DNA of 33,920 bases from Candidatus Pelethosoma merdigallinarum (GTDB lineage: Bacteria > Bacillota_I > Bacilli_A > RF39 > UBA660): assembly GCA_018716065.1 (NCBI GenBank), contig DVKJ01000063.1:1-33920 (forward strand). The letters are read 5' to 3'. The notes beneath the pieces are model-generated. The model was not told where the DNA came from and made no database searches. It was given only the letters and a program-made list of their open reading frames with translations. A program made the position numbers and the translations under genes. How positions within the stretch are numbered: position 1 is the first letter of the stretch; each line of letters starts with the position of its first letter. Shown here one piece after another: positions 3,220 through 27,330 of the stretch.

Positions 3220-6192
3220 TTATTCTATTACTAGTTCAATACGATTTCTTTTCTCTTCATTCAACTCAAAATGATATTTTTTTCCATTTATTGTTGCACT
3301 AGCTTTACTTAAATCGCTAAATAGCAAATCATTTAATTCACCATAATCCGAAATATTAGAGTCGGTTGAAAGATAAATAGCATACGTTCCCTTAGGTAAT
3401 TTTGATATATCTAATTCTTTGTCAAACCATGCTCTATCTTTTTGTTTTCCAAATTGATCAGCAACTACTAATGATATAGGATAAATCGGAGTACTTAGAC
3501 TACCGACATCAAATCTTGTTTGTTCAAAAGTTTTAATGTTTTCAAAAATGATTTCTCGTTTCATAAATGTATTACCTTTACGCATATCCATTCCTACCGA
3601 ATATGAGGCTGCAATAATATGCAACTTATTATTTTCAAACGCTAGTTGATTAAATAAGCTATACTGGTTTACATCGTATGAAGTTTCTTTAACACCTAAA
3701 ACTTCATCACGAATAATAAATTCTACAGGAATATTTTCATCCATATAATTATTTGTTATAGTTACATATTTTGCATCTGTATTGTATTGTGTGGTTTGTT
3801 CATTTAACAACATGTTTTGAACATATGACTTTGCATAATAATTATCAGTTCTAGATCTAAAGTATGCTGTATAATCACCTGCTTCAACATTATCTAATTC
3901 AATAACATCTTCAAACCAAGCATATTTATAATTATATTTTTCATCTGACATAATAGGAATCGTCATTTCTGTTTCATCAATCATACGATCTAATACTTGC
4001 GTATATTGTTTTCCCGTTGTCTGATTTTCTAAAACTAATTCATATATAATAGGAGTACGTAAATCATTATTAATACCTTTGATAATATGGTAACCCTTCA
4101 TTTTTAACTTTCCATCAACAACTTTAAGATATTCTAAATAAAATTCACCATCTTTTTCCGTTAAATAATCTTCAACCGTTCCTTTTTTCCAAATAGCTTC
4201 ATAAGAAGTTGGACCTGTTGTTTCTGTTAATTCAGGTGTCCATCCAACAAAGACATATCCATCTTTAAATGGTGTTTCGACACTTGGGATCGTTCCTTCG
4301 GCAGTTTCTACTACTAACTCTTCTTTTCCATTACTAAAGGTTCCACCATCGGCATTAAAAGTTACATCATGGAACACAGCTTCTTCCCAAATGGCTTTAT
4401 AAGTAGTCTCACTCGTTGCCACTACAACTTCTGGTTCCCAACCTTTAAAGATATAATTCTTTTTCGTTGGCTCATCAACAACTGGTTTTTGGTTATAAGT
4501 TGTTTTTACCACTCGTTTAGTATTTCCATCTTTAAATGTTCCACCATTCGCATCGAATGTAATATTATATTCTTTCGCTTTCCATTGTGCAGTGTAAGTT
4601 TTATTTCCTGTTGCTGGAGCAATGGTTTCATTCCATCCTGTAAAATCATAACCCTCTCTAGTTGGATTTTCTACTGTTGGTGTTACTCCACTTTGGACAT
4701 TGACCGTTTTACTACTTGTTTGATCACTAAATAATCCACCATTCGCATTAAATGTAATATTATAAGTTGTGTTAATTCGACCCACACCATTTTCTACAAT
4801 AACATCAATCGCACTAGAATGAATATAAGCATAATTATTACTATAGTTATATTCTCCCACATCTTGAACAAAAGCGGTTCGATTACTATTTAATACAGGA
4901 TCTGCTTGTATTTTATACCATTTATTATTTCCATTGACACTACTTCCTGTTACTTCTCCTAAAATAATGACTGAGTAATCCACAACATTCGTCGTTGTAT
5001 AAAGAGCATTGGAATTCGTATCTGGTTCTTTATAAATCGTATAATTATTCGAACTTGTTTTAATTCCTAACGTATAATATCCATAATCTTGGAATCCATA
5101 AGCTTGATCAAAATAATAATAATATTTGGTAGCTTTTTCACCCCAATAAGGGTCTGAAGCATATTTTACATTAAATCCACTGGCTTTATTTCCTAAATGA
5201 CCACCATTATATCGTGACTTATAATCATTAGGGTCCATAAAATCAATCGAGATAAAGAATCTTGCATGAGCATTAATACTATCTTGTGGTGTATTATATC
5301 CATCTGCATTCGCACCAGGGGCATCATCATAAGCACCATGTCCATATAAGTTATTGGTACGTAATGGAATCGAAGCTCTTCCTCCACCACTTTCATTATA
5401 AGCTACACCGTAGGACATAATCGCATTCGCTCCATATGCATTCTGAGCGCTAATAAAAGTATTCTGTGTTCCATATAATAAAGATTCATAATCTTTTATA
5501 TTATATCGATCTTGTACCGTACTTGTATAACCTAACACATTGGTAATATAGTTTGCAATATCTGCGGCTGTATAATTCGTCTTACTACGATGTGATAAAT
5601 ATTGATAATAGCTGTAATATGGTCTACCAGCATTAATGGCATGTTCATGCGTTCCATTCAATACATCATCCGTCATTTGTTTATATCCTTGTAAGGAAGC
5701 TGGATAAAAATAATGACCATCATAACTTAAATAATCTTTTCCTTCTTCTAAACCGATAGTATCTGGACCTAAAGGAGCAGTTCCATAAGAAATTCCATGA
5801 ACAGCTATAGCAAATTTATGAACAATTGCTCCATCTACCTTTTCATAAAATGACATATAGTACTTATCATAGTCCGCTTGTGTTTCCATTGGTAATAATT
5901 CAACTTCCCAAGAATCTACATAACCAATGACACCTGATAACATAAATTTTACTTTTCCATTTTCCGTTCCTAAATATAGGGCATCCGCACCATAATATCC
6001 ATTGGTATACCCTTGTTCACCGGTTACAGCTTCTATGTAGTGCGTATTGATCATATTGGAAGATTTTGTTCTAAAATTAACTAACTTATATCCACCACTA
6101 GGAGCCGCATTCGCAAATTCGCAAATAAATGGGATGCATAAAAAACAAAGAAAGAAAATAGATACAATCCCATATTTTATTTTTTGTTTCAT
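3220..6192 (-). CDS. secreted N-acetylglucosaminidase with InlB-like B-repeats
   Basis: A peptidoglycan hydrolase exported by an N-terminal signal peptide (KQKIKYG, hydrophobic core, probable cleavage after ANA). The glucosaminidase core lies at about residues 210-370, with the likely catalytic Glu in YNESGG (about 271 of the long ORF) and typical downstream text (NLYGHGAYD, DSINAHARFF). An SH3-like region (about 375-470) follows. Three B-repeats of the Listeria/InlB type come next at about 480-690, each beginning NITFNANGG or similar and ending TYxAxWK. The last 300 residues look like beta-rich Ig-type modules of unknown family. There is no LPXTG motif. I prefer the ATG at 6192 over 6204: AAGGAG touches the 6204 ATG, whereas GAGGGG sits 4 nt before 6192. 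The substrate is inferred to be GlcNAc-MurNAc bonds. Confidence 0.8.
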   Translation of the reverse strand: MKQKIKYGIVSIFFLCFLCIPFICEFANAAPSGGYKLVNFRTKSSNMINTHYIEAVTGEQGYTNGYYGADALYLGTENGKVKFMLSGVIGYVDSWEVELLPMETQADYDKYYMSFYEKVDGAIVHKFAIAVHGISYGTAPLGPDTIGLEEGKDYLSYDGHYFYPASLQGYKQMTDDVLNGTHEHAINAGRPYYSYYQYLSHRSKTNYTAADIANYITNVLGYTSTVQDRYNIKDYESLLYGTQNTFISAQNAYGANAIMSYGVAYNESGGGRASIPLRTNNLYGHGAYDDAPGANADGYNTPQDSINAHARFFISIDFMDPNDYKSRYNGGHLGNKASGFNVKYASDPYWGEKATKYYYYFDQAYGFQDYGYYTLGIKTSSNNYTIYKEPDTNSNALYTTTNVVDYSVIILGEVTGSSVNGNNKWYKIQADPVLNSNRTAFVQDVGEYNYSNNYAYIHSSAIDVIVENGVGRINTTYNITFNANGGLFSDQTSSKTVNVQSGVTPTVENPTREGYDFTGWNETIAPATGNKTYTAQWKAKEYNITFDANGGTFKDGNTKRVVKTTYNQKPVVDEPTKKNYIFKGWEPEVVVATSETTYKAIWEEAVFHDVTFNADGGTFSNGKEELVVETAEGTIPSVETPFKDGYVFVGWTPELTETTGPTSYEAIWKKGTVEDYLTEKDGEFYLEYLKVVDGKLKMKGYHIIKGINNDLRTPIIYELVLENQTTGKQYTQVLDRMIDETEMTIPIMSDEKYNYKYAWFEDVIELDNVEAGDYTAYFRSRTDNYYAKSYVQNMLLNEQTTQYNTDAKYVTITNNYMDENIPVEFIIRDEVLGVKETSYDVNQYSLFNQLAFENNKLHIIAASYSVGMDMRKGNTFMKREIIFENIKTFEQTRFDVGSLSTPIYPISLVVADQFGKQKDRAWFDKELDISKLPKGTYAIYLSTDSNISDYGELNDLLFSDLSKASATINGKKYHFELNEEKRNRIELVIE

Positions 6193-6235
6193 AGATCCCC
6201 TCATCTCCTTTTATTAATCCTATTTTTACATTTTA

Positions 6236-12944: not shown

Positions 12945-12971
12945 TAGTATATGAAAAACACCCTAAAGGGT
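12945..12971 (-). promoter_or_regulatory. SigK-like promoter for spoVIF
   Basis: CATATACTA matches the SigK -10 consensus CATAnnnTA, with an AC 16 bp upstream as the minimal SigK -35. That AC lies within the stem of the preceding gene's terminator. spoVIF is a late mother-cell gene in B. subtilis. Confidence 0.5.
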
Positions 12972-12974
12972 GTT
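12954..12974 (-). terminator. terminator of the TasA-DUF6273 gene
   Basis: AACACCC, a 4-nt loop and GGGTGTT followed by Ts on the minus strand. It starts at the stop codon of the frame ending at 12973. Confidence 0.7.
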
Positions 12975-13440
12975 AAATTTCATATGGTGAATTAAAGGTT
13001 CCGTTACCTGAAGTAATTTGAACATCTGGAGAAATCATGATCACTGGGCGGACAGCATTTTTATTTTGTATAGAATATCCATATGCATCTCCAACACTAT
13101 ATGTAGACCAAGCTAAAGAAGAATTATTATGTGGTGTAGCATTCCAAAAAGGTTGAGCATATTGATGATTATTTTCACTTAGATGTTTTTTTGAAAGTAT
13201 GGTTTCACTTTGTTCAGATAATATTTCTCCAACTCTTATTAAACCTATTCGTCCTTCATAAGAATTACTTGTACTTTCTAAATTTGTTTTATAATTATCG
13301 CCATAATCAAAATTATCTCCTCGATACCATGTTGTTGAAACTAGTTTATTTTTATCTACTTCATTATTATTACTAATCCAATTTATAAATGGTTCTTCAT
13401 TTATGGTTGTACATAATGTACAATTAGTCCCATATGCCAT
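12973..13440 (-). CDS. detached C-terminal half of the TasA-DUF6273 protein
   Basis: This ORF is the downstream part of the gene at 13527..14771, separated by a frameshift. Coding text continues upstream of its ATG without a stop to about 13538, reading NYRVVETSSTGTKLILDGYY, then an EF-hand-like DSNNDGIIEETD loop, then MAYGTNCTLC. It has no RBS of its own. It forms a second DUF6273-like domain: WYRGDNF, GRIGLIRVGE, WSTYSVGDAYGY and a closing VRPVIMISPDVQITSGNGTF. That close mirrors VRPVVNIKSDVTITGGNGTL of the first domain. It is translated only if the ribosome or polymerase slips at the A6 run, or if the frameshift is a sequencing or strain-specific event. Confidence 0.6.
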   Translation of the reverse strand: MAYGTNCTLCTTINEEPFINWISNNNEVDKNKLVSTTWYRGDNFDYGDNYKTNLESTSNSYEGRIGLIRVGEILSEQSETILSKKHLSENNHQYAQPFWNATPHNNSSLAWSTYSVGDAYGYSIQNKNAVRPVIMISPDVQITSGNGTFNSPYEI

Positions 13441-13526
13441 TTTATCTGTTTCTTCTATTATGCCATCATTATTACTATCATAATATCCATCTAAGATTAA
13501 TTTTGTTCCTGTACTACTTGTTTCTA

Positions 13527-14771
13527 CTACGCGATAATTTTTTCCGCGTATGTTACATATTCTCCTACATGACCTTTATCTTTTAAATTTCCTGTTACAT
13601 TATGAACTTCTCCGATTAAGTATGGATCCGTTAGAGTACCATTACCTCCAGTAATGGTCACATCAGATTTTATATTCACGACTGGACGAACACCACCTGC
13701 TGTTGTAATAGAATAATTATATTTAGTATTTTTATAACTAATATACCAACCATCAGAAGTATTATATACAGTTAAAGTCCAAAAGATTTGTGAATTCATT
13801 AAATAATTAACATTACTATTCACAAGATTATATTCATCTAAAGATAATAGACCAACAGGTTTCTGCAAACTTGACAAGTTATTCATACAAGATGTTCGTG
13901 TTGATGTTTCATCTGTTATTGTTTCACTACACCATGTCTGATTAACAAGTAAATCTTTATCTTTTAATTTTGGATAAAAATAATTATTCAACCAATCATT
14001 CACATAACTATTGTCATAATCTAAAGCTGTATTTTCGGATCCCCATGGAATTGCAGTTACATTTTCTTCCGTAATCATACGAATACTTCCATCACTATTC
14101 TTTCCCATGATTCGCCATAAGAATCCATCAAACCATACATAGTTTGAATCTTGATTTCCTTTTAAATAGGTTCCATCCACATAATTATAAGTTCCATCTG
14201 TACTAGAATCTAATAAATTCTGTGTCACACTTGCAAGTGCAGTTTCACTGGGTGTGGTAGATCCTGTATCTTGAACGAAGTTTATTTTTAATGTTAAGTC
14301 TTTATTTGTATTTGGAATACTCGTTGAATTACTATCCCAATTTACTTTTACTTTAAATACTTTGGATTCTTTCGCTTTTAATTTGTCATTTACTGCAATA
14401 TCTTCTATACTAAAGGTAATATCCGTTGGAACTGTTGAATTAGCTTCTTCAATACCATTGATACTTTCTACATAGGCATCAATATTACCTCTATTCTCTA
14501 CCGTAATCAAATACTCTCCACTAGAACTTGGTTTTTCTAAAGCTATTGTAAAAGTTGCCGTAGTGGAGTTTGTAATTTGTTTATTGATGGTTTTCGCTCC
14601 ATTCATTGTTCCTTCTTCGATATTGGTAAATAAAATATTAAAATCCGATGTAATTCCACTTGTTCCATTAATATTTAATTGCCCGCTTAGTACCGCATAA
14701 CCTACAGTTAAACCTACAATCACCGCGCAAAGCGTTCCTATTATGACTCTCTGTTTCTTTCGCGTTCTCAC
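13527..14771 (-). CDS. TasA-like N-terminal and DUF6273-like surface protein, frameshifted 3' end
   Basis: Residues 1-40 are a basic stretch and a SipW-type signal anchor (RVIIGTLCAVIVGLTVGYAVLSGQ) like those of the TasA paralogs at 24965 and 26740. About 150 residues of TasA/camelysin-like beta domain follow, then a DUF6273-like domain (SNYVWFDGFLWRIMGK to VRPVVNIKSDVTITGGNG). The predicted cell location is the surface, processed by the SipW-type peptidase at 23719. I place the start at the GTG at 14771, which has AGAGGTGG 4 nt upstream. The ATG at 14819 is fused to the TATAAT of a perfect promoter and should not be in the transcript. The frame breaks at an A6 run near 13538..13543; one extra A would join it to the frame ending at 12973, giving a protein of about 600 residues. 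Confidence 0.72.
   Translation of the reverse strand: MRTRKKQRVIIGTLCAVIVGLTVGYAVLSGQLNINGTSGITSDFNILFTNIEEGTMNGAKTINKQITNSTTATFTIALEKPSSSGEYLITVENRGNIDAYVESINGIEEANSTVPTDITFSIEDIAVNDKLKAKESKVFKVKVNWDSNSTSIPNTNKDLTLKINFVQDTGSTTPSETALASVTQNLLDSSTDGTYNYVDGTYLKGNQDSNYVWFDGFLWRIMGKNSDGSIRMITEENVTAIPWGSENTALDYDNSYVNDWLNNYFYPKLKDKDLLVNQTWCSETITDETSTRTSCMNNLSSLQKPVGLLSLDEYNLVNSNVNYLMNSQIFWTLTVYNTSDGWYISYKNTKYNYSITTAGGVRPVVNIKSDVTITGGNGTLTDPYLIGEVHNVTGNLKDKGHVGEYVTYAEKIIA
13538..13543 (-). other. frameshift point at an A6 run
   Basis: The minus strand reads GCGGAAAAAATTATCGCG. With six As the frame ends AEKIIA-stop. With seven As it would read AEKNYRVVETS and stay open to 12973. Homopolymer slippage, a real mutation or a sequencing error would all give this pattern. 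Confidence 0.75.
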
Positions 14772-14817
14772 AAAACCACCTCTACTTCTATTATGGTTTA
14801 TTCTACTATCTTTATTC

Positions 14818-14847
14818 ATTATACAAAAAGAGAGGGATTATTGTCAA
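14818..14847 (-). promoter_or_regulatory. consensus SigA promoter of the TasA-DUF6273 gene
   Basis: Perfect TTGACA and perfect TATAAT with an 18-bp spacer. The -10 box overlaps the ATG used by the ORF track, which moves the real start downstream to the GTG at 14771. Confidence 0.75.
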
Positions 14848-21914: not shown

Positions 21915-21982
21915 ACGACACTTTTAAGGTTTCTGAATGAATATTTTTACAGATATCTAAAATCTGTTTAGACAAAAATAAA

Positions 21983-22010
21983 AAATTGGTAAATTCATTC
22001 TTACCAATTT
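21983..22010 (-). terminator. terminator after the third TasA-like gene
   Basis: AAATTGGTAA pairs perfectly with TTACCAATTT over an 8-nt loop, and is followed by a T-run on the minus strand. Confidence 0.75.
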
Positions 22011-22053
22011 CTTATATCTGTCATATTGAACATTTTTTAAATTTTACACTTTT

Positions 22054-22590
22054 TTACAGTTGAACAAATTGAAAGTTTGCTAAAATGGTACTATAAGCTC
22101 CTTCTGTTACATTGGTAACAGCTGGATCCCACTCTACTTTGATACGAACTGTTGCTTTTTGTCCGGCACGTAATACATATCCTTTTTCTACTCCACTAAC
22201 TGTATAACGAATCGCATTGTTTGTATTTTGGTCATTATCAATATCAATTAACATTTGGTCTAAAACAGCATCTAAACGCCCTTTATTGTGGATTTCTACG
22301 TCATAGGTTACACTATCCCCTGGTGAATTTAAAATCACGTAGAAATAGAGTGTATTGGCAATACTATAAGGTTTAAACTTTTCACTCGCACTCCCTTCAA
22401 TCGTTCCAGAGGTAGTTACGTTCGTTTGAATATCCCAAAATTTTGATTGATCTACAATACCAAATTTTGCTTTATAGGCTAGTGGTATATAACCAATTGC
22501 CATAATTAAAAAAGCAATAAATAAACAAAATAAAATTCTTCCTTTATATGTTCTTGGTTTTTGTTCTTGATTTTTTGTTTCTGGATTCAT
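22054..22590 (-). CDS. divergent TasA/camelysin-like secreted protein
   Basis: A 178-residue protein with a basic N-terminus, one signal-anchor helix (ILFCLFIAFLIMAIGYIPLAYKA) and a beta-rich ectodomain with the TasA-type core: NSPGDSVTYDVEIHNKGRLDAVL, then GQKATVRIKVEWDPAVT and a closing ANFQFVQL. It is clearly homologous to, but much more diverged than, the two near-identical TasA-like proteins upstream. It is probably cleaved by the SipW-type peptidase at 23719 and could be a TapA-like minor or anchoring subunit; that role is inference. The gene has its own promoter and a terminator on each side. Confidence 0.72.
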   Translation of the reverse strand: MNPETKNQEQKPRTYKGRILFCLFIAFLIMAIGYIPLAYKAKFGIVDQSKFWDIQTNVTTSGTIEGSASEKFKPYSIANTLYFYVILNSPGDSVTYDVEIHNKGRLDAVLDQMLIDIDNDQNTNNAIRYTVSGVEKGYVLRAGQKATVRIKVEWDPAVTNVTEGAYSTILANFQFVQL

Positions 22591-22611
22591 GATCTCACCT
22601 ACTATAATATT

Positions 22612-22640
22612 ATTGTATAAAATTATTGAGAAATAGTCAA
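22612..22640 (-). promoter_or_regulatory. SigA-like promoter of the third TasA-like gene
   Basis: TTGACT, 17-bp spacer, TACAAT on the minus strand. The -35 overlaps the T-rich end of the preceding terminator. Confidence 0.6.
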
Positions 22641-22669
22641 GAAAAGAACAAGAATTCTATTCCTGTCCT
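22638..22669 (-). terminator. terminator overlapping the end of the DUF5305 gene
   Basis: AGGACAGGAAT pairs with ATTCTTGTTCT (11 bp including two G-U pairs), followed by TTTCTT on the minus strand. The stop codon at 22657 lies within the loop. Confidence 0.5.
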
Positions 22670-23700
22670 TCACGTAAAACGAAACGATATAATTGAGTTC
22701 CTTGAATAATCATAAACCAACCTTCATTTCCATTACCATAATATAGAATTGGAATACGAACTTCAGCTTCTAAATCAATTAATTCATTAAATGATTTTAC
22801 TTCAACAATGGTCATATTAGAAATATCCATTAATGTATTAATTTCTACAATGATATCTCCATATTCTTTTAAGATACGATTAACTTGACGTTCAAATGCA
22901 CTTTCATTCTTTTTCGCAAATGTCTTACAATACTTATAGAAAGCAAATGCGGTTACAACAAAGGCTCCAAGTGCAACAATAATTTTTAAAGCATTAACAG
23001 TTCTTGTTGCCGTTGTAACTTTAGAAATATTTTGAACTTCATTAGTCTTAGATTTTGTTGTAATTTGGAATGCTTGTTCATTAAGAGGAATCTTCATTTC
23101 ATAAGAACTTTCCTCATTTACCGTTCCCACGTTAGAAGTTGGAACACCACGAACACTTACTTTAAATACTACTGATAAATAAGCATCCATTGGAATACTG
23201 ATTTCTTTATAGAAGTTTTCTACAATCGCATTATATTGTTCATAATCAATCACTAAATCTTTTGATAAAGTAAATCCTAATTCATTATGAAGTGTTTTTG
23301 TTTCAGATGGCACTAAAACATAACTCTTATTCCATACTTCATTATTTTCTAATTCATCTGTTGTTTGATACTCACCAATAATATTTGCATTTACACTATA
23401 AGTATAGGTAAGATCAGCTTCTGTACTTCCACTATATTGATAGTTAAATTTTGCATTAATATTATTAACTAATTTAGAAATATATAACTTATTCATTCCT
23501 ATAGTTTTAGAATCTGTATAGTTATTATCTTTTAAATTAACAGAATATGTTCCTGATGGTGTTGCTTTATAAGAATAAAGAACATCTTGTTTTCCTTCTG
23601 TAACGTTGATTGCACTAAAACCAATCACCGCTTCAACACTAAAAATAATTAAGAAGATTAAAGGAATAATCACTTTCCTTAACATTTTATTATCTTTCAT
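22657..23700 (-). CDS. DUF5305-type membrane protein of the SipW/TasA locus
   Basis: A 347-residue protein with an N-terminal signal anchor (VIIPLIFLIIFSVEAVIGF), a beta-rich extracellular domain of about 210 residues, a second membrane helix (about 235-258, ALKIIVALGAFVVTAFAFY) and a cytosolic tail of about 80 residues. The architecture and wording (VLYSYKATPSGTYSVNLKDNN, YIVVPSETKTL-like strand) fit DUF5305 proteins, which commonly sit beside SipW-type peptidases. The function is unknown; an anchor or assembly factor for the TasA-like fibre is inferred from context. AGAGGG precedes the ATG. It lies 18 bp after sipW, so the two are co-transcribed. Confidence 0.75.
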   Translation of the reverse strand: MKDNKMLRKVIIPLIFLIIFSVEAVIGFSAINVTEGKQDVLYSYKATPSGTYSVNLKDNNYTDSKTIGMNKLYISKLVNNINAKFNYQYSGSTEADLTYTYSVNANIIGEYQTTDELENNEVWNKSYVLVPSETKTLHNELGFTLSKDLVIDYEQYNAIVENFYKEISIPMDAYLSVVFKVSVRGVPTSNVGTVNEESSYEMKIPLNEQAFQITTKSKTNEVQNISKVTTATRTVNALKIIVALGAFVVTAFAFYKYCKTFAKKNESAFERQVNRILKEYGDIIVEINTLMDISNMTIVEVKSFNELIDLEAEVRIPILYYGNGNEGWFMIIQGTQLYRFVLREGQE

Positions 23701-23718
23701 TTTGTTCCCTCTTTTCTT

Positions 23719-24879
23719 TTATCTTTTTGAAAACATGTCATTCAACCATACAGAAGGATATCCAATCTTTGGTATAACATATTTTACAACGCCTCGAATC
23801 TGTGACTCTGTCACTGGATTCGAATCTGGTGCATTATTATTATCACCTTTCGTAATATAAGTAAATGCTCCATTATCATCTTCTTTTATTTTTACAATAC
23901 GATGCACAATGTAACGTCCATCCGCTTCATACTGTAAAACATCTCCTACTTTTAATTTATCAGTTTCATCCACATCTAACTTTCGTACTACTACGACATC
24001 CCCACGACTAAAAGCAGGAACCATACTGTTTGAAACAATCGCAACTGGTTCATTTTTAAATAAACCTAATACGAATCCTACAAACATAATCAAAATCGCA
24101 TAAATTGGTAGTATATTTAATGGATTATCTCGATTAATACGCCTTCGCGAGACATTCTCTTCCACTTTGATTTGTGCATAATTCATATAGAAATATACAA
24201 TAGATGGTGTAATAATCTCAAATAATGCGGTTCCAAACCAATCTAAATTTGGGAAAATAGGAGTAATAAAGAAAACAATTTGGATTACACTACGATAGAT
24301 AATATTAGGAATAAATCCTGCAATCGTTGCAATATAAGTAAATAAGCTATTTTTAACAACCGATGGGATTAACACAGAAGAGATATATTCAAAAGATGTC
24401 TGCATATTTGCAAAATTCTTATCGATCTCTGTATAGTTTAATTCCACCGCAACAAATAAGACCGTTACAATTGCTAGAATATATTTTTTTCGGCTTGTAT
24501 AGTTAACCAAAATAGAACGTACATATTCTTGACAAATAAAAGCTGGGATATAAGACCAAATATTAACCAGGATCTTCCCAATATCATGAGAATATGGACT
24601 ATATTGATATCCAAATACTAAACCTGATAAAAAATAAACAATCAAGTATAAAATAACGGCAATAACTACTGTTTGTATTTTATCTACTTTATTTTTATAC
24701 CGAGGATGTTCATTCGATGAAAATAAAAAGGCAAGCCCTGCGATGAACAACCAAAACAAAGGGTTGATCACATTATAATATATTTTTGCAGAAAAAATAA
24801 TATTTAATGCAGGGTAAATTGTCAAGTATAAAAATATAAGTACATAAATACTAATAATTTTCAAATTAATTCTCTTCAT
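23719..24879 (-). CDS. sipW: SipW-type (ER-type) signal peptidase with polytopic N-terminal extension
   Basis: S26B signal peptidase expected to mature the TasA-like proteins of this locus. The C-terminal 110 residues hold the catalytic Ser in SNSMVPAF (about Ser285), the His of YIVHRIVK (about 326) that replaces the bacterial Lys, and the TKGDNNNAPD box. Residues 1-275 add roughly seven to eight membrane helices not present in B. subtilis SipW (about 190 residues, two helices). This extension contains QEYVR (117-121), faintly like the motif 1 of CPBP/Abi membrane proteases, but without the other motifs. AGGGG lies upstream of the ATG. It sits between the tasA-like gene at 24965 and the DUF5305 gene and is co-transcribed with the latter. 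Confidence 0.85.
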   Translation of the reverse strand: MKRINLKIISIYVLIFLYLTIYPALNIIFSAKIYYNVINPLFWLFIAGLAFLFSSNEHPRYKNKVDKIQTVVIAVILYLIVYFLSGLVFGYQYSPYSHDIGKILVNIWSYIPAFICQEYVRSILVNYTSRKKYILAIVTVLFVAVELNYTEIDKNFANMQTSFEYISSVLIPSVVKNSLFTYIATIAGFIPNIIYRSVIQIVFFITPIFPNLDWFGTALFEIITPSIVYFYMNYAQIKVEENVSRRRINRDNPLNILPIYAILIMFVGFVLGLFKNEPVAIVSNSMVPAFSRGDVVVVRKLDVDETDKLKVGDVLQYEADGRYIVHRIVKIKEDDNGAFTYITKGDNNNAPDSNPVTESQIRGVVKYVIPKIGYPSVWLNDMFSKR

Positions 24880-24947
24880 ACTTTTCCCCTAGTTTCCTAT
24901 CATAATTATAGTTTAACAAAAAATTAGATAGAAATCAAGTAAAAGAA

Positions 24948-24972
24948 AAGCTTAAAATTAAATTTTAAGCTT
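24948..24972 (-). terminator. terminator or attenuator between tasA copy 1 and sipW
   Basis: A perfect 11-bp stem (AAGCTTAAAAT with its complement, 3-nt loop) encloses the tasA stop codon and is followed by TTTTCTTTT on the minus strand. It should lower sipW expression relative to the fibre subunit. Confidence 0.7.
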
Positions 24973-25558
24973 GTACATATTCTAGAGTAACAGTTAACTT
25001 TTTAATTGTGTTTTCTGGAACTGTAGTTGCAGCTGCATCCCACCATACTTTTACATGAATTGTAGAAGTTTTTGCAGGGCCGTCTGAAGGTTTTCCGGCT
25101 AGTACAGTATTTTGGGCACTTGCATATGGTCGACCATCAATAGTGATTTCATAATTAATGCCATTAGCTTCTGTCAATTGTAAATCACCAGAACCATCTG
25201 CCGAAGAAGCAGTCGCTACTACATTAGCTAATTTTGCGTCCAAAGAACCGTTATTTGTTACAATGATATCATATTCCATCGTATCACCAGGTGTTTGGAA
25301 TTCCACATCAAAAGTAGCTGTTGTTTGTCCAGAAATAACTGCTGGTGTTTTATTTGAAGCTGTTGGAGTAACTCCTGTTGAGTTGCTTGGAGTTCCCTCA
25401 CTAATTGACGTAAATTTTACATCCCAAGTACTAGTTACTTGAGCTGTACCATTAATCGTTAATTGTTGAGCTAAAGCTGCATATCCAACTGCCATCGCAA
25501 TAATTGCCACTAATAAAGCACCAATAAGAATGTTCTTCTTTTCTTTTTTCTCTGACAT
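24965..25558 (-). CDS. TasA/CalY-like fibre subunit, copy 1
   Basis: A 197-residue SipW-dependent secreted protein. The N-terminus has a Lys-rich start and a signal helix ending GYAALAQQ, a typical SipW-type cleavage context. The mature part is a TasA-like beta domain (TINGTAQVTSTWDVKFTSI, QTPGDTMEYDIIVTNNGSLDAKL, TIHVKVWWDAAATTVPENT, LTVTLEYVQA). TasA and camelysin form amyloid-like or donor-strand fibres on Bacillus surfaces; a matrix-fibre role here is inferred. It is a tandem duplicate of the gene at 26740, nearly identical at both ends and variable in the middle. It keeps its own promoter, so the IS upstream does not obviously silence it. Confidence 0.85.
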   Translation of the reverse strand: MSEKKEKKNILIGALLVAIIAMAVGYAALAQQLTINGTAQVTSTWDVKFTSISEGTPSNSTGVTPTASNKTPAVISGQTTATFDVEFQTPGDTMEYDIIVTNNGSLDAKLANVVATASSADGSGDLQLTEANGINYEITIDGRPYASAQNTVLAGKPSDGPAKTSTIHVKVWWDAAATTVPENTIKKLTVTLEYVQA

Positions 25559-25585
25559 ATATACCCTCCTATATCTTACAAATAT

Positions 25586-25614
25586 ATTCTATCACGTTAC
25601 AATTTAAATTGCAA
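25586..25614 (-). promoter_or_regulatory. SigA-like promoter of tasA copy 1
   Basis: TTGCAA, 17-bp spacer ending TGA, TAGAAT (extended -10 type). The architecture and the following GATATAGGAGGGTA leader match those of copy 2, showing the duplication included the promoter. The IS ends 25 bp upstream of the -35. Confidence 0.6.
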
Positions 25615-25625
25615 GAAAAAAAACT

Positions 25626-25638
25626 TAAAACAAATTAA
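25626..25638. repeat. 13-bp direct repeat, left copy
   Basis: TAAAACAAATTAA, identical to 26731..26743 on the other side of the IS. It is probably the duplicated target. Confidence 0.8.
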
Positions 25639-25640
25639 TT

Positions 25641-25660
25641 GTGAAATGAAAAAGTAAATT
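25641..25660 (+). repeat. IS terminal inverted repeat, left
   Basis: GTGAAATGAAAAAGTAAATT; 18 of 20 positions match the right end read inward. Confidence 0.75.
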
Positions 25661-25700
25661 GCCCTTAAATATTTGAAACTGAAATTTAATCTTTCACTCG

Positions 25701-25751
25701 TTTTAGTCAAGGACTAGGCTTGCCTGGTTCATCGAAGATCCTTGACTAAAA
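25701..25751. repeat. long stem-loop inside the IS
   Basis: TTTTAGTCAAGGA and its exact complement (13 bp) enclose a 25-nt loop that is richer in G+C than its surroundings. It occupies the place where the transposase N-terminus would be encoded, and the TTG that opens the ORF lies within the right arm. It could protect the transposase from read-in transcription, or be a scar of internal deletion. Confidence 0.7.
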
Positions 25752-26500
25752 ACTTTTATTATATAATTTTTTATGGCAAAAGAACTTTATATAATTATGT
25801 TGAAAAAGGCTATTTAGATATTATTAATTTAGACTTACCTAGAAAAGTTAGATATAAAAAACGTAAGAGAAACAACAAAGATACACCTAAAAAAGATACT
25901 AAAATTAGAATCAATCGCACATATGAAGATTTTAAAGACTACGTAAAAAACTATAATGATAATAATTTTAATATTAATATTGTTGAAATGGATACTGTTG
26001 AAGGTGTGAAAGGCGAATCGTTACTTCTTACTCTTCTTTGGAGACAAGCTAATTTTATGTTAGCCTTCAAAATTGAAAATAAAGAACCCGATTCGGTTAA
26101 CGCATTCTTTTCTTATTTAAAGGAGATTTTAGGATATGAAAAATTTCATGAATTATTTCCTATTATTTTAACCGATAATGGTATTGAATTTTCTAAACCT
26201 GATGAAATCGAATTTAATGGTTATCATGTTTATAAAACAAGATTGTTCTACTGTGATCCAGGGCATTCGGAACAAAAAGGTAAGATTGAAGTTAATCATG
26301 AATATATTAGGAGATTTATCCCTAAAGGAAATACTTTTGAGGCCTATAACCAAGAAGATATAAATTTAATGTTAAATCATATTAATTCTGTTAAAAGAGA
26401 TTCATTAAATGGTGATAATCCCTATACTTTAATGAAAGACTTTTTGACTAGAGAGATTATTTTAAAAAATAAATTATTTAAATACAAAAACAAAAGATAG
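25742..26500 (+). pseudogene. IS30-family transposase lacking the N-terminal HTH
   Basis: DDE transposase of the IS30 family. The recognisable homology begins at GKRTLYNYVEKGYL and continues NLDLPRKVRYKKR. The catalytic residues are all visible: first Asp in VEMDTVEG, second in ILTDNGIEF, and Glu in HSEQKGKIEVNHEYIRRFIPKG. The ORF encodes 252 residues from a TTG that lies inside a stem-loop; intact IS30 transposases have about 320-380, including an N-terminal helix-turn-helix region for end binding that is absent here. A TAG in the same frame 27 bp upstream blocks extension. The catalytic domain looks well preserved, so the loss may be recent or the HTH may be supplied in trans. Confidence 0.75.
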
Positions 26501-26710
26501 CCTTCACCACAAAAGCTATCAAATTTGATATACAAGTAATATATCACATACTGAAATTTAATTATGCACGAAAGCTAAGTGTATACTTTTTTTCATGCAA
26601 TGAAATATTAAATTTCGGATATATATTAACATATTTATAGGAAAAATGGTAGCTTTTTTTTTAAAAAATGCCATTTACTCTTACAAATATGTATTTAGAA
26701 CAAAATCTGA

Positions 26711-26730
26711 AATTTAACTTTTCATTTCAC
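26711..26730 (-). repeat. IS terminal inverted repeat, right
   Basis: GTGAAATGAAAAGTTAAATT on the minus strand, partner of the left end. Confidence 0.75.
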
Positions 26731-26743
26731 TAAAACAAATTAA
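26731..26743. repeat. 13-bp direct repeat, right copy
   Basis: TAAAACAAATTAA; includes the TAA stop of tasA copy 2 read on the minus strand. Confidence 0.8.
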
Positions 26744-27330
26744 GCTTGTACATATTCTAATGTAACTGTTAACTTTTTAAGCGCATTTTCTGGTATTGTA
26801 GTTGCGTTTTGATCCCACCATACTTTTACGTGTACAGTAGAAGTTTTAGCAGCTCCATCTGCTGGTTTTCCAGCTAATACAGAATTCTTAGCTTCTCCAA
26901 TTTGTTTACCATCAATAGTGATTTCATAATTAATTCCATTTGCTTCGGTTAATTGTAAATCACCAGTACCACTTGCAGAAGAAGCAGTCGCTACTACATT
27001 AGCTAATTTTGCGTCCAAAGAACCACCATTGGTTACAACGATATCATATTCCATCGTATCACCAGGTGTTTGGAATTCCACATCAAAAGTAGCTGTAGTA
27101 TTAGTAATTTTTGGTGGAGTTTTATTTGTTGCTGTAGAAGCTACTCCAGCCGAGTTACTTGCCGTTCCAGCACTAATTGACGTAAATTTTACATCCCAAG
27201 TACTAGTTACTTGCGCTGTACCATTAATCGTTAATTGTTGAGCTAAAGCTGCGTATCCAACTGCCATCGCAATAATTGCGACTAACAAACCACCAATGAG
27301 AATATTCTTCTTTTCTTTTTTTTCCGTCAT
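26740..27330 (-). CDS. TasA/CalY-like fibre subunit, copy 2
   Basis: This 196-residue paralog of the protein at 24965 has the same SipW-type signal helix (NILIGGLLVAIIAMAVGYAALAQ) and TasA-like core. The first 50 and last 20 residues are almost identical between the copies. Differences cluster at about 55-75 (SAGTASNSAGVASTATNKT here) and around the DGKQIGEAKNS loop, as expected if exposed loops diverge. The stop codon is part of the IS direct repeat. The gene begins about 70 bp after divIC with no terminator between them, so it may receive transcripts from the spoVG-yabP-yabQ-divIC run as well as from its own promoter. GGAGGG precedes the ATG. Confidence 0.85.
   Translation of the reverse strand: MTEKKEKKNILIGGLLVAIIAMAVGYAALAQQLTINGTAQVTSTWDVKFTSISAGTASNSAGVASTATNKTPPKITNTTATFDVEFQTPGDTMEYDIVVTNGGSLDAKLANVVATASSASGTGDLQLTEANGINYEITIDGKQIGEAKNSVLAGKPADGAAKTSTVHVKVWWDQNATTIPENALKKLTVTLEYVQA

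Follow-up and report, generated by a model that had tools for sequence, protein, structure and literature searches.

A long SipW peptidase coupled to a DUF5305 membrane protein at a candidate TasA-type surface-fibre locus of Candidatus Pelethosoma merdigallinarum

We analysed a window of 33,920 nucleotides (nt), which corresponds to one contig (G000:C47) in the 1.32-Mb, 91% complete genome of Candidatus Pelethosoma merdigallinarum. Following divIC, the minus strand of this window carries the genes tasA1 (26740..27330), tasA2 (24965..25558), a long sipW (23719..24879), a DUF5305 gene (22657..23700) and tasA3 (22054..22590). All five open reading frames that a sequence-only reading had assigned here were confirmed, and its view that they belong together was borne out, as they form one conserved fibre-type locus. 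The tasA1 product, a major TasA-like subunit of 196 amino acids (aa), has an N-terminal helix, an A-L-A cleavage site that we placed by inspection at A30|Q31, a conserved LTINGTA segment and a beta-sandwich; the structural part of this description is taken from the model of the tasA2 product, the second major subunit (197 aa), which is 84% identical to it. The AlphaFold2 model of the latter (predicted local distance difference test score, pLDDT, 89.6) shows a beta-sandwich and, right after the helix, an unstructured segment (residues 31-46) in the position expected for a donor strand. The tasA3 product (178 aa) is divergent, being only about 27% identical to the other two yet homologous to them by profile (hhalign E = 7.4e-28). 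It reads 'PLAYKAKFG' in place of 'ALAQQLTING', and because of the Pro at position -3 and the loss of the LTINGT segment, both seen in tasA3 throughout the genus, it may be retained in the membrane or act as a capping or terminal subunit of the fibre.

The long SipW (386 aa) combines a polytopic N-terminal domain (approximately residues 1-255) with a signal peptidase domain of the endoplasmic reticulum (ER)/archaeal type. The N-terminal domain of about 250 aa, previously undescribed, contains roughly five helices by hydropathy, ahead of the helix that leads into the catalytic domain; G86, E118, R121 and P210 are invariant in it, and no consistent Pfam family match was obtained for the first 255 residues. 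The catalytic part is of the ER/archaeal S26 type (TIGR02228, 91.8 bits, cut-off 51.85) and shows the S26B signature of Ser-Met with His in place of Lys, residues S285-M286, H326 and D346/D352 being fully or almost fully conserved across 43 proteins. SEC11C/A was its best match in the PDB (E about 1e-22), and against the Bacillus SipW equivalog model NF046067 it reached 62.9 bits, below the cut-off of 190. Judged by these sequence features, the protein is a longer, separate subtype of SipW, and just one such gene is present in this genome.

The DUF5305 protein (347 aa) matches PF17231 over the full model (positions 1-217 of 217; 79.6 bits, cut-off 29). It is predicted to consist of a transmembrane helix (5-29), a beta-sandwich ectodomain (31-235), a second transmembrane helix (237-262) and a cytosolic alpha/beta domain (268-347), and the confident AlphaFold model (pLDDT 92) contains both helices, a long-stranded beta domain between them and the alpha/beta domain. 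The cytosolic domain includes the block RILKEYGDIIVEINTLMDIS, which is invariant across the genus. A Foldseek search found no close structural relative of this model in the PDB, and a fold assignment was rejected as the only match below 0.001 had a TM-score of 0.16/0.30. When the genus-level DUF5305 alignment was scanned against a wider sequence collection, only the four relatives in the genus matched. We found no paper that mentions DUF5305, in a search that left out most subscription journals and preprints and relative to which any novelty has to be read; literature searches for SipW and TasA returned Bacillus and Clostridium systems only.

All five genus genomes share the syntenic order of one to four TasA-like genes, long sipW, the DUF5305 gene and a divergent TasA-like gene, flanked in each by divIC and a penicillin-binding protein gene. 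The TasA-like copies before sipW number 2, 2, 1, 4 and 4 in these genomes, so that the three subunits described by the sequence-only reading are present here as a figure specific to this genome. Wider conservation was examined in 145 genomes of the family, with loci fetched for 72 long-SipW genes; since the surveyed genomes share ancestry, P values are given for description only. DUF5305 was found over the cut-off in 68 genomes, a full-length long SipW in 66 and both in 63 (Fisher P = 4.6e-31, species not being independent). The neighbourhood test, which had been set beforehand as one that could refute an association of DUF5305 with sipW in relatives, came out in favour of it: a DUF5305 gene lies directly downstream of 79 of the 86 long-SipW genes (74 over the cut-off and 5 below it), and among the seven exceptions one sipW is truncated at a contig end and another lies immediately behind a DUF5305 gene. 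In the fetched loci the two genes were adjacent in 67 of 72, the gap between them having a median of 9 nt; 64 of the 67 pairs are spaced by at most 25 nt or overlap, and 66 by at most 30 nt or overlap. These 67 loci come from nearly as many genera, and the pairing persists in them although the proteins are only about 20-40% identical; beyond the family it occurs in genomes G161 and G214 and, with a shorter peptidase, in G326. Class-wide the pair is uncommon (at E <= 1e-5, 27 of 395 genomes, of which 23 belong to the same family), and most genomes that have only short SipW-type peptidases lack DUF5305. One further match, in the Bacilli genome G223 (L153:5576-7993), lies on a contig of 60% GC content where a signal peptidase adjoins DUF5305 and the TasA-like precursors have archaeal-looking twin-arginine signal sequences; it was set aside as probable archaeal contamination.

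In 59 of the 70 loci that could be tested, the gene immediately before the long sipW is TasA-like, compared to a background of 3 in 150 genes away from the locus in the same fetched regions. The adjacency is thus far above chance, and the subunits are encoded beside SipW as TasA/camelysin-type subunits are; TasA-like proteins and long SipW also co-occur by genome (P = 1e-22). The gene behind DUF5305 is more variable. It is conserved in the genus, whereas beyond the genus only about half of the loci have one; in the fetched loci a TasA-like gene comes after DUF5305 in 34 of 66, its product measuring between 101 and 2229 aa. Some 20 DUF5305 genes over the cut-off have no long SipW beside them, and as these paralogues frequently come after a TasA-like gene all the same, DUF5305 has links to both SipW and the TasA-like subunits. 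Its main partner, however, is the long SipW and not the fibre subunits.

Separate promoters and terminators with graded stoichiometry had also been claimed for this locus. A consensus scan of the window gave 60 promoters versus 50 (standard deviation 8.7) in shuffled sequence, and 3 terminators versus 2.7; the scan was dropped for this lack of excess, and the five genus genomes were compared instead. In this comparison a hairpin with T-rich sequence was seen behind nearly every major tasA gene, as in the terminator- or attenuator-like hairpin after tasA2 (24948..24972, minus strand; AAGCTTAAAAT-TTA-ATTTTAAGCTT with a T-rich tail). A promoter-like TTGACT-N17-TA(C/A)AAT element precedes tasA3 in all five genomes (here TTGACT-N17-TACAAT at 22612..22640, minus strand), and a terminator-like hairpin (21971..22022, minus strand) follows this gene. 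Between sipW and the DUF5305 gene the spacer is 14-23 nt in all five genomes and is free of such signals, and the two look like one transcription unit. What stands of the earlier claim is that graded amounts are plausible, the major subunit being abundant, the peptidase and DUF5305 scarcer, and tasA3 under separate control.

We interpret the locus as a TasA/camelysin-type surface-fibre locus with a two-protein membrane processing unit of long SipW and DUF5305, and give this joint reading, including the hand-over of subunits, a probability of about 60%. The two proteins would be produced jointly from the bicistronic unit and most probably associate in a membrane complex, in which SipW would cut the TasA-like pre-proteins behind the N-terminal helix at the A-L-A site. 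The N-terminal domain of SipW would be its contact with DUF5305 in the membrane, which a comparison of evolutionary distances fits: this domain tracks DUF5305 better than the catalytic domain does (r = 0.60 versus 0.48), and for the subunit the catalytic domain is no worse a match than the N-terminal domain (0.56 versus 0.49), the joint contrast having a bootstrap P of about 0.015. The outside beta-sandwich of DUF5305 would receive the freed subunit and promote or anchor its polymerisation, presumably by donor-strand exchange, in a role that we liken to that of the B. subtilis protein TapA and the B. cereus protein CapP. The bulk of the subunit would be provided by tasA1 and tasA2 from their own terminator-limited units, and tasA3, with its altered cleavage and donor segment, could be a minor cell-proximal subunit or anchor.

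The kinship of the subunits to TasA is suggested by several comparisons. Profile-profile comparison with bona fide PF12389 relatives gave E = 1.9e-7 (94%) over the N-terminal half, 9 of 46 members of the subunit family have sub-threshold camelysin matches, and the best PDB matches of the subunit profile include the donor-strand fibres AbpX and TasA (E = 0.003-0.05); a PDB search with one single subunit sequence gave no match. The Foldseek top 50 for the tasA2 model consisted of weak matches, among them immunoglobulin-like domains and the pilins CfaB and FimG, and an NCBIfam scan for SipW-type signal peptide models gave no more than weak matches, in relatives.

A number of observations weigh against the reading that we prefer. 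The curated TasA/camelysin cut-off (PF12389, NF046066; 22.5 bits) was not reached by tasA2 (20.5) or tasA1 (16.6), tasA3 gave no match, and TasA was absent from the Foldseek top 50 of the tasA2 model. For these reasons we name the proteins TasA-like rather than TasA, the evidence of kinship being weak but consistent; the two near-identical TasA-like proteins of the sequence-only reading are closely similar indeed, but the label is weaker than it sounds. No homology of DUF5305 to TapA or CapP was detected, its protein gave no match to TapA models in Pfam and NCBIfam scans, and no obvious TasA-like donor peptide is present in it; whereas TapA is soluble and secreted with a TasA-like N-terminal donor peptide, DUF5305 has two predicted membrane helices. 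Five genomes (G015, G048, G053, G064 and G112, two of them about 70% complete) have DUF5305 with no detected long SipW, and the contrast in evolutionary distances is modest, with phylogeny as a confounder.

The proposal that DUF5305 takes the place of a TapA-like factor or serves as a membrane anchor therefore needs to be divided, since the protein is predicted to be membrane-anchored but tracks the long SipW rather than a TapA slot among the subunits. The main alternative, in our view rather unlikely, is that DUF5305 is a non-catalytic signal peptidase subunit without a direct role in the fibre, which positions or stabilises SipW and selects substrates in the manner of the eukaryotic accessory subunits around SEC11. 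The SipW catalytic domain is structurally closest to SEC11A/C, DUF5305 is linked more tightly to the long SipW than to any subunit gene and is mostly missing where only short SipW-type peptidases occur, and the N-terminal domain of SipW tracks it, all of which would fit such a subunit; its sequence, however, matched no subunit of a signal peptidase complex, the Foldseek top 50 contained none, and several of the DUF5305 genes that are not beside a long SipW stand behind a TasA-like gene. Quite improbable to us is a passive anchor, whose ectodomain would bind the initial subunit and keep the completed filament on the membrane, while DUF5305 took no part in processing. The two membrane helices with a beta-sandwich outside would suit this, as would the lack of any sortase or wall-anchor domain in the five locus proteins in Pfam and NCBIfam scans, but translational coupling is to sipW and not to a subunit gene, and the conserved cytosolic domain would be superfluous. 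That we are dealing with a normal tasA-sipW biofilm operon, to which DUF5305 is an unrelated conserved neighbour, we regard as very improbable: the tasA-sipW pairing is itself well known (PMC9674648, PMC7395162), yet DUF5305 keeps its place next to the long sipW at low identity in many genera and outside the family.

The combination of a long SipW and DUF5305 can be compared to known systems. In B. subtilis tapA-sipW-tasA, a SipW-type peptidase likewise occurs with TasA-like subunits and one accessory protein (PMC10151520, PMC9674648), and the accessory gene and sipW are joined by a short overlap or gap as in the SipW-DUF5305 loci, the tapA/sipW start-stop overlap having been cited as a hint of association (PMC10151520). 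Here, in contrast, there is no TapA homologue and the accessory protein is the DUF5305 protein with its two transmembrane helices, SipW has an extra polytopic domain, and there are several subunits below the TasA family threshold. The B. cereus sipW-tasA(calY1)-capP(bc1280)-calY locus shares two related subunits, SipW, an accessory assembly factor and separate transcription units (PMC13082335, PMC10151520), but CapP is a secreted wall-bound DUF4047 protein. The C. perfringens sipW-bsaABCRSD operon has a SipW-dependent polymer protein and accessory genes, and the polymer gene is followed by a terminator that allows read-through (PMC7395162); as described, it differs in having two-component regulators inside and no reported DUF5305, and the BsaA model matched none of the window proteins. 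The archaeal bundling pili are donor-strand fibres, and AbpX was the best PDB match of the subunit profile (E = 0.003 and 0.02), although these matches are weak and limited to the beta-sandwich region.

An IS30-like insertion that the earlier annotation of the tasA1-tasA2 interval had overlooked is located on the plus strand at about 25639..26730 (NF033563, 96.5 bits). Its transposase ORF (25742..26500, plus strand) lacks the first 73 model positions. The element has imperfect terminal inverted repeats (arms 25641-25660 and 26711-26730), is flanked by a 13-bp target duplication TTAATTTGTTTTA (direct repeats 25626-25638 and 26731-26743) and splits the tasA1 terminator hairpin. It is found only in this one of the five genus genomes, being absent in the relative G002; the closest relative has a 78-nt spacer at this place, and no second copy was found in this genome assembly. 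Based on the repeats, the duplication, the split hairpin and the spacer in the relative, the insertion most likely arrived later, in a tandem tasA pair that already existed, and stands outside the system.

The repertoire of TasA domains extends beyond the locus. In this genome a TasA-like N-terminus occurs in approximately 24 proteins or protein fragments, which make up about 2% of the assembly by summed ORF lengths, and one SipW apparently serves all of them in a genome of 1.3 Mb; other genera reach at least 22 scored TasA-like matches. Many of these long proteins contain DUF6273, or Listeria-Bacteroides repeats in the case of relatives. Within the window, a TasA-domain protein fused to DUF6273 is encoded at 13527..14819 on the minus strand, and behind it, in the region 12950-14819, another frame continues into a second DUF6273-like end (ORF 12973-13440), which could reflect a frameshift in the gene or the assembly, or a switchable cassette. 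The window also encodes a 994-aa secreted protein (3220-6204) with repeated 'YNITFDANGGTF' segments that by eye resemble Listeria-Bacteroides repeats. In relatives, giant TasA-domain proteins with such repeats are encoded directly after DUF5305 (L127:300-6989, 2229 aa; L076:7007-13001, at least 1998 aa; L084:3025-6177, 1050 aa), and one of them also matches the C-terminal domain of phage baseplate Gp10. TasA-domain genes with near-identical N-termini contain the contig ends of G000 C48, C12, C3, C43, C4 and C64 (L025, L024, L026, L031, L032, L033); such repeats probably break the assembly, and recombination among them is possible.

We tentatively consider it possible that SipW-DUF5305 is a dedicated secretion-and-assembly complex for modular display, in which more than 20 TasA-domain proteins with varied C-terminal domains plug into the fibre or are processed alike. 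If these proteins do share the assembly rule of the fibre, the fibre would be a display scaffold. For the initiation of TasA-type fibres at the membrane without TapA, outside B. subtilis, the SipW-DUF5305 pair is a concrete candidate for the missing factor, and its widespread, translationally coupled occurrence proposes a function for DUF5305. Our data also point to a large surface-protein system in uncultured Bacilli with small genomes, and suggest that fibres are cut and assembled there by a two-protein machine that has not been described in model species.

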